A DNA stretch of 47,595 nt from NCBI GenBank assembly GCA_001798595.1, contig MGSS01000032.1, positions 1 to 47,595 on the forward strand. Direction: 5' to 3'. The position numbers and the translations under genes were made by a program. This document shows positions 11,509-31,221 of this stretch, one piece after another. A model generated the notes under the pieces. That model made no database searches. It saw nothing but the letters and a program-made list of their open reading frames with translations, and was not told where the DNA came from. How positions within the stretch are numbered: the stretch's first letter is position 1; each line of letters starts with the position of its first letter. Origin of the DNA: Deltaproteobacteria bacterium RIFCSPLOWO2_12_FULL_60_19 (lineage in GTDB: Bacteria > Desulfobacterota > Binatia > UBA9968).

Positions 11509-11518
11509 AAAGACCATC

Positions 11519-11594
11519 GGTTTGCGCGACTGGCGTTTACGTGGAATTGACCACGAGGAAGTGCAAAACCTTAAGACGGCCGAACGCCTGGGTC
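11519..11594 (+). promoter_or_regulatory. ZTP (pfl) riboswitch aptamer
   Basis: The leader matches the ZTP aptamer in sequence and fold. P1 pairs GGTTTGCGC (11519-11527) with GTGCAAAACC (11561-11570). The conserved GACTGGCG (11528-11535) follows. P2 is CGTGG/CCACG (11540-11544 and 11551-11555) around AATTGA, then AGGAAG. P3 pairs GGCC (11579-11582) with GGTC (11591-11594) around the loop GAACGCCTG, whose CGCC pairs with GGCG (11532-11535) as the pseudoknot. ZTP/ZMP accumulates when 10-formyl-tetrahydrofolate is short, and these switches normally turn on one-carbon and purine genes. Downstream genes make serine (the one-carbon donor) and AMP, a fitting regulon. Confidence 0.92.
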
Positions 11595-11623
11595 TCTTAG
11601 TTCTAAGAGCTCAGGCTTTTTTT
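11586..11623 (+). terminator. Intrinsic terminator forming the ZTP riboswitch expression platform
   Basis: GCCTGGGTCTCTTA (11586-11599), loop GTTC and TAAGAGCTCAGGC (11604-11616) form a stem with one bulge, followed by seven T (11617-11623). The 5' arm reuses the CGCCTGGG segment of the aptamer's P3 loop and pseudoknot. Ligand-bound aptamer and terminator are therefore mutually exclusive, which predicts that ZTP turns the operon on. Confidence 0.92.
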
Positions 11624-11656: not shown

Positions 11657-12802
11657 ATGATTAAACAATACTTGCTCTCTCCCGGTCCCACGCCCATCCC
11701 CAACGAAGTGCAATTGGCGATGGCGGCGACCATGATCCACCACCGCACACCCGAGTTCGCCAAGGTCTTTGCCGAAGTCCGAGAGGGACTGAAGGAGTTG
11801 TTCGGCGCGAAAAACGACGACGTCCTGATCCTGGCCTCTTCCGGCACCGGCGCGATGGAGGCGACGGTTTCGAACCTCTTCTCCCCCGGCGACAAAGTTT
11901 TAGTCGTAAACGGCGGAAAGTTCGGCGAGCGGTGGCTCGAGATCAGCAAGGCCTTCGGCCTGACTCCCATAGAACTCAAAGTCGAGTGGGGCAAGGCGGT
12001 CAAGGTGGAAGACGTCGAGCGCAGCTTGAAGTCCCATCCCGACATCCAGGCAGTCTTGATCCAGGCGAGCGAGACTTCGACCACGGTCTGGCATCCGGTG
12101 CGCGAGCTCGCGCGGCTGACGCAGAACGGCCCGCTGCTGATCGTCGACGGCGTCACCGCCGTGGGCGTGGCGCGCGTGCCGCTGGGGGAGTGGGGCATCG
12201 ACGCGCTCGTGACCGGATCGCAAAAGGCGCTGATGCTGCCGCCGGGCCTTGGATTCGTCTCCTTCGGCGAGCGCGCCTGGGCCAGGGTCGAGAAGGCAAA
12301 GCTCCCGCGCTTCTATTTCGATTTAAGGCTCGAACGCAAAAGCCAGCAGAAAGGCTCGGGCGCGTTCACGCCGGCGGTCTCGCTGATCTTCGGTCTGCGC
12401 GCGGCGCTCCGGCTGATGCGGCAAGAGGGTCTCGATCGGGTTTATGCCCGCCACGAGCGCATGGCGCGCGCCACGCGCGCCGCGGCGACGGCGATGGGGC
12501 TTAAGCTGCTCGCGCCGGAAAGCCCGAGCCCGGCGGCCACCGGCGTCTACATGCCCGAGGGAGTGAACGCCGACAAGTTGTTGGATTTTCTCCGCGAGAA
12601 GATGCAGATCACGCTGGCCGAGGGGCAAGATCGGCTGAAGGGTAAGGCCATCCGCATCGCCCACGTGGGCTACATGGGCGCGTTCGACGTGCTGGTCGCG
12701 ATCGGCGCGCTGGAGATGGCGCTTAAGAAATTCGGCGCGCCGGTAAAGTTCGGGCAGGGAGTGGCGGCCGCGCAGGAAGTGTTGATGGAAGCGCTGGAAT
12801 AA
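11657..12802 (+). CDS. Class V PLP-dependent aminotransferase, probable phosphohydroxypyruvate/serine-pathway enzyme
   Basis: A 381-residue fold-type I aminotransferase of the alanine-glyoxylate/serine-pyruvate group. It starts LLSPGPTPIPNEVQLAM, carries SSGTGAMEA for PLP phosphate binding, the PLP-ring Asp in LLIVDGVTAVG, and the Schiff-base Lys190 in GSQKALMLPPGLGF. Members of this group act as serine-glyoxylate, alanine-glyoxylate or, in lineages lacking classical SerC, phosphoserine aminotransferases. Because serA begins only 2 nt downstream under the same ZTP riboswitch, I infer that it converts 3-phosphohydroxypyruvate to phosphoserine. The ribosome binding site (AAGGTG) is moderate. 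Confidence 0.88.
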   Translation: MIKQYLLSPGPTPIPNEVQLAMAATMIHHRTPEFAKVFAEVREGLKELFGAKNDDVLILASSGTGAMEATVSNLFSPGDKVLVVNGGKFGERWLEISKAFGLTPIELKVEWGKAVKVEDVERSLKSHPDIQAVLIQASETSTTVWHPVRELARLTQNGPLLIVDGVTAVGVARVPLGEWGIDALVTGSQKALMLPPGLGFVSFGERAWARVEKAKLPRFYFDLRLERKSQQKGSGAFTPAVSLIFGLRAALRLMRQEGLDRVYARHERMARATRAAATAMGLKLLAPESPSPAATGVYMPEGVNADKLLDFLREKMQITLAEGQDRLKGKAIRIAHVGYMGAFDVLVAIGALEMALKKFGAPVKFGQGVAAAQEVLMEALE

Positions 12803-30676: not shown

Positions 30677-30753
30677 TGTTAAGAGCAGCAATTTAGCCTA
30701 ATATTTTAGAAACAGGAAGCGAGAGAGTGGATTTTCTCCCCCTGGAGGGCGAT

Positions 30754-31221
30754 ATGCGAAACAAACGGTGCTGCAACCTGCCGACACTGGTTGTCACAGT
30801 CCTGTTGCTCATGGTTCCATCGGCGCGCTACATCGAAGCAGCCTCGGCGGGTCCTACCGTCACGGTCTATCAAAGCCCCACCTGAGGCTGCTGCTCCGGG
30901 TGGGTGGGTCACCTGCGCGCGAATGGCTTCAACGTAAAATCGAACGGTGTGTCGGACGTTGAGCTGCTCAAGATCAAAACCAAGTACGGAGTCCCGGAGT
31001 CTCTGCAAGCGTGCCATACGGCGATTGTCGAAAACTATGTTATCGAAGGTCATGTCCCCGCCGATCTCATCCTCCGCCTGCTGAAAGAAAAGCCCGCCGT
31101 CGTCGGCATCGGCGTCCCCGGCATGCCGAGCGGCTCTCCGGGAATGACCGGCCCGCCCGAACCCTACAGCGTCTACACCTTCGACCGCGCCGGCAAGACG
31201 AAAGTGTACGCCACGCGGTAA
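30754..31221 (+). CDS. DUF411 metal/redox protein with in-frame UGA (candidate selenoprotein)
   Basis: Read through one UGA, this is a complete 155-residue exported DUF411 protein. ATG 30754 follows GGAGG. Residues 1-30 form a signal peptide (TLVVTVLLLMVPSA). The mature part starts VTVYQSPT, then TGA (codon 44, 30883-30885), then GCCSGWVGHLRANGF, where the family has SPTCGCC. The rest is intact: GVPESLQACHTAIV, YVIEGHVPAD and GIGVPGMPSGSPGM are DUF411 hallmarks, and no other stop occurs before TAA. A hairpin follows the UGA at a bSECIS-like distance. The likely reading is selenocysteine replacing the first Cys of the Cys-Gly-Cys-Cys site. A nonsense mutation (one base from TGC) or a sequencing error remains possible. 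DUF411 proteins are often linked to copper or mercury handling. Confidence 0.75.
30897..30919 (+). promoter_or_regulatory. bSECIS-like hairpin downstream of UGA
   Basis: Starting 11 nt after the UGA, GTGGGTG (30900-30906) pairs with CACCTGC (30910-30916) around a GGT loop (30907-30909), giving 7 bp including two G-U pairs. After one mismatch, two more G-C pairs (30897-30898 with 30918-30919) extend it. The loop begins 21 nt after UGA and starts with GG, features expected of a bacterial SECIS recognised by SelB. It was folded by eye, with no energy calculation. Confidence 0.55.

Follow-up and report, generated by a model that had tools for sequence, protein, structure and literature searches.

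A UGA-containing DUF411 gene that probably encodes a selenocysteine variant of CopG, a periplasmic copper protein

The DUF411 gene at positions 30754-31221 of the forward strand of the window, by which we mean the whole analyzed stretch of 47,595 nt, carries a single in-frame UGA and is best explained overall as encoding a selenocysteine (Sec) version of CopG, a periplasmic copper protein. We hold this reading with strong confidence, with the qualification that Sec insertion, export and copper binding are inferred. Decoding of the UGA as Sec is close to certain in our judgment, which is a purely computational one with no protein or selenium data behind it; a copper role of the protein is likely, in the absence of copper data. 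The features that could be established computationally are the conserved UGA, the Sec machinery of the genome, constraint on a hairpin, continued selection on the protein, and the fold. An earlier note on this DNA had proposed a Sec-containing DUF411 protein, and all the checks it had suggested favored that reading, which is supported by the machinery, the recurrent UGA, the conserved hairpin and selection past the UGA, Sec insertion itself being inferred. DUF411 (PF04214, COG3019) is the CopG copper family, an identity that goes beyond what the note had seen and points to a likely function.

Reading frame and site residues

The frame extends from the ATG at 30754 to the TAA at 31219-31221 and specifies 155 residues with Sec at position 44, its sole internal in-frame stop being the TGA at 30883-30885 (codon 44), downstream of which 111 codons follow. 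A Shine-Dalgarno-like GGAGG (30744-30748) lies 5 nt upstream of the ATG, and residues 1-31 (30754-30846) form a predicted N-terminal export signal region with a hydrophobic helix at residues 10-19. The ribosome binding site and 111 stop-free codons described in the earlier note were found, as was a hydrophobic helix where the note had placed a signal peptide, with export remaining an inference. The gene assignment rests on the frame, on recurrence in homologues and on the match of the window protein to PF04214/DUF411 (8e-25; 86.8 bits at a cut-off of 27 bits), which is shared by all 13 aligned members from the family of the source bacterium, an uncultured one; no NCBIfam model covers the window's DUF411 protein. 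Since the putative Sec codon aligns to the first Cys of the CGCC motif in the solved homologue PDB 6WIS, the frame, the PF04214 match and this alignment together confirm that the one UGA occupies the first-Cys site of DUF411. The two other cysteines of the (U/C)xCC motif, Cys46 and Cys47 (30889-30894), are invariant in the alignments, as are the conserved Cys87-His88-Thr89 motif (31012-31020) and the Met pair of the CopG family, Met124 to Met131 (GMPxGSPGM, 31123-31146), whose role as two Met ligands is taken from PMC7558416 and PMC8456105. Hence all site residues of CopG are invariant except the first Cys, in whose place Sec would stand within an otherwise complete CxCC and Met pair arrangement.

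CopG fold and the copper link

The literature describes CopG as a thioredoxin-like protein of the periplasm in which CxCC and two Met residues hold a tetranuclear copper cluster, and suggests that it functions as a copper oxidoreductase (PMC7558416, PMC8456105). In Pseudomonas aeruginosa, the DUF411 protein PA4714 is upregulated 16-fold under copper stress (PMC6444534). The structure model of the window protein (pLDDT 85.5) is best matched by P. aeruginosa CopG (6WJE/6WIS; Z 21.4, rmsd 1.4, 121 residues) and shows the thioredoxin-like fold of that protein, the next matches being glutaredoxin-like proteins at Z 7. With P. aeruginosa CopG the window protein has 40% identity and shares family, fold, the (U/C)xCC motif, the CHT motif, the Met pair and predicted export; the two differ in that CopG starts its CxCC with Cys and is often encoded within copper clusters, whereas the window gene has Sec and stands alone. 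CutG of Rhodobacter capsulatus belongs to the same DUF411 family and is, with CopG, among the closest known systems. The Cys-form DUF411 proteins of Gemmatimonadota and other phyla are the closest protein relatives and share the rest of the site, but carry TGC/TGT at the Sec position, lack a conserved hairpin and never have Gly or Val at position Sec+8.

It is possible, if rather unlikely, that Sec is inserted but the protein serves as a periplasmic oxidoreductase of the thiol/selenol type with proteins or small molecules as substrates, and has no copper function at all. A thioredoxin/glutaredoxin-like fold is indeed the next best structural match, and copper genes are not adjacent; against this, the 40% identity and the Z of 21 to a copper-binding CopG extend across the whole mature domain, and the CxCC positions, the CHT motif and the Met pair have all been kept. 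We recognized no copper gene adjoining Sec-CopG in the window or in relatives, in which neighbors were read by eye rather than by family search. Linkage to copper-resistance genes, which is frequent in the CopG family without being a defining property, is not met here: the window neighbors encode MFS, amidohydrolase, ABC transporter and isochorismatase proteins, and the settings vary in relatives. At seven loci (L019, L021, L024, L026, L027, L028 and L032) the gene adjoins one for a substrate-binding-protein-like product (VRMVFVSLAWNSEIPFR...), unlike in the window. Elsewhere in the window, a ZMP/ZTP riboswitch (RF01750, 56.7 bits) is located at 11516-11600 on the forward strand, just upstream of an ORF at 11657.

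Selenocysteine machinery

The source genome (4.19 Mb, 97% complete) encodes the full SelA/SelB/SelD plus tRNA-Sec set expected of a bacterium with selenoproteins. The genes selA, selB and selD, all scoring above curated cut-offs, adjoin on one contig (C142), and a tRNA-Sec with anticodon TCA (76.6 bits) is found on another (C153), so that the search for selA, selB, selC and selD suggested in the earlier note met with success. The SelD gene (L001:3443-4564), beside selA and selB, itself has a UGA in the motif AAGUAAK, which we take to be the usual Sec site of SelD, and a formate-dehydrogenase-alpha-like gene (L235; G000:C89:1697-3211) contains an in-frame UGA followed by a His codon; with a UGA in each of these two genes, the Sec system has clients other than CopG. 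Beyond the source genome, selB was found in 11 of 13 other UGA-form genomes of the source family and in 12 of 13 UGA-form Gemmatimonadota genomes. In the latter group its presence does not separate the two forms, as 35 of 43 genomes with the Cys form have it too. No selB match was obtained in the UGA-form genomes G005 and G862 (completeness of the latter not given), and no tRNA-Sec was seen in G005, whose assembly of 790 contigs is likely incomplete; genome G021 was without a selB match but with a tRNA-Sec.

A hairpin downstream of the UGA

Bacterial SECIS elements were taken to be hairpins just past the UGA with a G among the first two loop bases and the loop 16-37 nt away. A predicted hairpin of this kind spans 30900-30916, with a stem formed by 30900-30906 and 30910-30916 and the loop GGU at 30907-30909, 21 nt past the UGA, as the earlier note had described it. 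With the U of UGA numbered 1, the stem is made up of bases 18-24 and 28-34, which enclose a three-base loop (25-27). Folding the single sequence, as the note had advised, yielded the hairpin at the distance given there, yet its energy was ordinary in comparison to shuffled sequences (z -0.87; 39 of 200 shuffles equally good). Synonymous-codon shuffles likewise gave ordinary fold energies and did not set the UGA genes apart, because the peptide W-V-x-H-L already encodes much of the stem; such shuffles being uninformative, a base-level comparison with the Cys genes was needed. The predicted hairpin is thus convincing only in comparison across genes, not from any single sequence.

This comparison indicated conservation at the RNA level in the UGA genes and not in the Cys genes. 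The hairpin is kept in 26 of 27 UGA genes, with a different hairpin in the 27th, and is mostly absent from the Cys genes. A standard pair 18-34 is present in 26/27 UGA genes versus about a quarter of the Cys genes, base 34 is C in all 27 versus 39 of 81, and Leu at 31-33 is encoded by CTG or CTA in all 27 versus 20 of the 37 Cys genes with Leu at this position, a preference expected if the third base of the codon must pair with U19. At the loop, the residue at Sec+8 (Gly52 in the window, codon 30907-30909) is Gly or Val in 26 of the 27 UGA genes and in none of the 81 Cys genes. With synonymous sites almost saturated, inheritance alone can hardly account for those of the contrasts that are synonymous. 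Overall, stem pairs were formed in 94.7% of cells, as compared with 29.6-54.5% for slid partners, and the SECIS rules were fulfilled at -5 kcal/mol or below by all 27 UGA genes versus 29 of the 81 Cys genes (difference in energies, P 8e-10); the P and Fisher values assume independent sequences and are hence too small for related genes. In locus L192, G24-C28 is replaced by A-U at the expense of a His-to-Tyr exchange, and only one double-sided compensatory change occurs in the standard register of the stem. The sole UGA gene that breaks pair 18-34 (L026) forms an alternative stem of six pairs, whose GGU loop lies within the permitted distance.

Suppression of the UGA by read-through or a near-cognate tRNA, inserting Cys or Trp, perhaps as a regulated switch and with the hairpin acting as a stimulator without Sec, has little to commend it. 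It is true that the inserted residue cannot be named from sequence, and that the UGA merely stands where relatives have Cys. However, SelABCD is present together with other recognizable Sec clients, the position, loop G and distance of the hairpin fit the bacterial SECIS rules, and exchange of a thiolate Cys for Sec follows the usual pattern.

Recurrence of the UGA and selection past it

A search of 193 relatives identified a homologue in 16 genomes. Within the source family (25 genomes), 14 of 14 homologues, that of the source genome included, have exactly one in-frame stop, a TGA at the position of codon 44, while the two remoter homologues in the same class have Cys there; the situation that would have refuted the earlier note, namely TGC or TGT in all close relatives, does not apply. 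Outside the source family, DUF411 is hardly present in the source phylum (1 of 395 sampled genomes, which is the source genome itself). Of 395 Gemmatimonadota genomes, sampled by way of the genome with locus L034, 312 contain a DUF411 gene, and the matches listed include at least 13 genes with one TGA, in every case at the codon equivalent to UGA44. UGA conservation, which the note had wished to see, is thus documented in relatives and in a second phylum, with at least 27 UGA-form genes in these two bacterial groups. At this site, the 81 Cys homologues compared, which represent several phyla, read TGC in 53 cases and TGT in 28. With an in-frame UGA, conserved flanks on both sides and Cys homologues at the site, the gene has the hallmarks of a selenoprotein gene, and chance is ruled out because the TGA recurs at one codon in 27 homologues. 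The phylum of G530, a Rhodospirillaceae MAG with locus L037, was sampled with 398 genomes, whose best 36 matches included no UGA form, and none of 106 matches in a pattern scan of viral-contig DNA encoded DUF411; one contig pattern scan required Cys codons at the site and accordingly returned Cys forms. In the tree the UGA forms cluster, with too few columns to decide between one and several origins; a single origin of the UGA genes may be considered. The UGA-CopG gene of locus L032 (genome G021) has a frame shift in its latter half, owing to an assembly error or to decay.

The protein encoded beyond the UGA is under selection. Pairwise comparison of the source-family UGA genes gave pS 0.71, i.e. 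synonymous sites near saturation, and pN 0.23. Median dN/dS in these genes is 0.62 in the signal region, where selection is relaxed, and drops to 0.29 over the ten codons preceding the UGA and to 0.15 past it; the low values indicate that the downstream part is a protein under selection, and likewise the short mature part upstream. Synonymous diversity close to the UGA differed little overall from that in the remaining gene.

That UGA is a sense codon, for example for Trp or Cys, throughout the lineage can virtually be discounted: the frame is open when UGA is read through, but TGA terminates 5 of 23 chosen long ORFs of the window as well as several UGA-CopG genes, the residues replaced are Cys throughout, the genome has a tRNA-Sec with anticodon TCA, and no genome-wide read-through of UGA was seen among the compared genes. 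A pseudogene or sequencing error, in which a single TGC-to-TGA change truncates an ordinary DUF411 gene, involves only one base and could not have been excluded from a lone genome, but this competing explanation of the earlier note is refuted by recurrence: 27 genomes from at least two phyla share this TGA codon, with selection past it, 81 relatives have TGC or TGT, and RNA features differ between the UGA and Cys gene sets.

Relation to known selenoproteins and proposed mechanism

A catalogue from 2026 comprises 119 prokaryotic selenoprotein families, among which DUF411, PF04214 and COG3019 are all absent (PMC13188914). The open-access literature yielded nothing on DUF411 as a selenoprotein and nothing joining CopG, selenocysteine and copper resistance, within the limits of that literature, where absence is not proof; the statement of the earlier note that it knew of no Sec-containing DUF411 protein holds for both the catalogue and the open-access literature searched. 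Sec replaces Cys at a predicted metal site in several catalogued families, namely the SO_0444 family Cu/Zn efflux transporter (UxC), CopZ-like 2Fe-2S proteins, the P-type ATPase (UxxC) and MbdU; judged by domain identifiers, none of them is DUF411/CopG. The thioredoxin-like selenoprotein Sec.2 (PF13192) shares a UxC motif and a thioredoxin-like character, and the TlpA/DUF1573 selenoproteins of the UGC type share the UGC motif, but these are other families without a CxCC copper site in the catalogue.

We envisage that SelB and tRNA-Sec would read UGA44 as Sec, directed by the SECIS hairpin inside the coding sequence, and that the product would be exported and adopt its predicted thioredoxin-like fold. 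Sec44-Gly-Cys46-Cys47 and the conserved Met residues would then be presented at a site equivalent to that of the copper cluster in P. aeruginosa CopG, where Sec44 would most likely ligate copper and/or act as the redox-active residue in a Cu-thiol(ate) oxidoreductase handling periplasmic Cu(I)/Cu(II). The role of selenium is inferred, as is, by analogy with CopG, the putative function of Sec44 as a ligand of a tetranuclear copper cluster. Going further, one may picture a multinuclear copper cluster bridged by the Sec selenolate in at least two phyla, along with a residue beneath the SECIS loop that is forced to one unused by the compared Cys forms, a proposal which in our estimate could equally prove right or wrong. 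To our knowledge, no biological Cu-Se site of this type, a copper cluster with a bridging Sec selenolate, has been described.

With its fold known and a Cys relative characterized biochemically, this additional selenoprotein family makes the effect of exchanging S for Se on the copper cluster directly testable. Standard annotation is prone to call UGA-CopG genes truncated or to miss them. In paired Sec and Cys genes, an RNA signal apparently imposes an amino acid change on the protein that contains it. The Gemmatimonadota genome G554 carries both a UGA and a Cys copy of CopG (L182 and L193), a naturally occurring pair that lends itself to comparison of the two.
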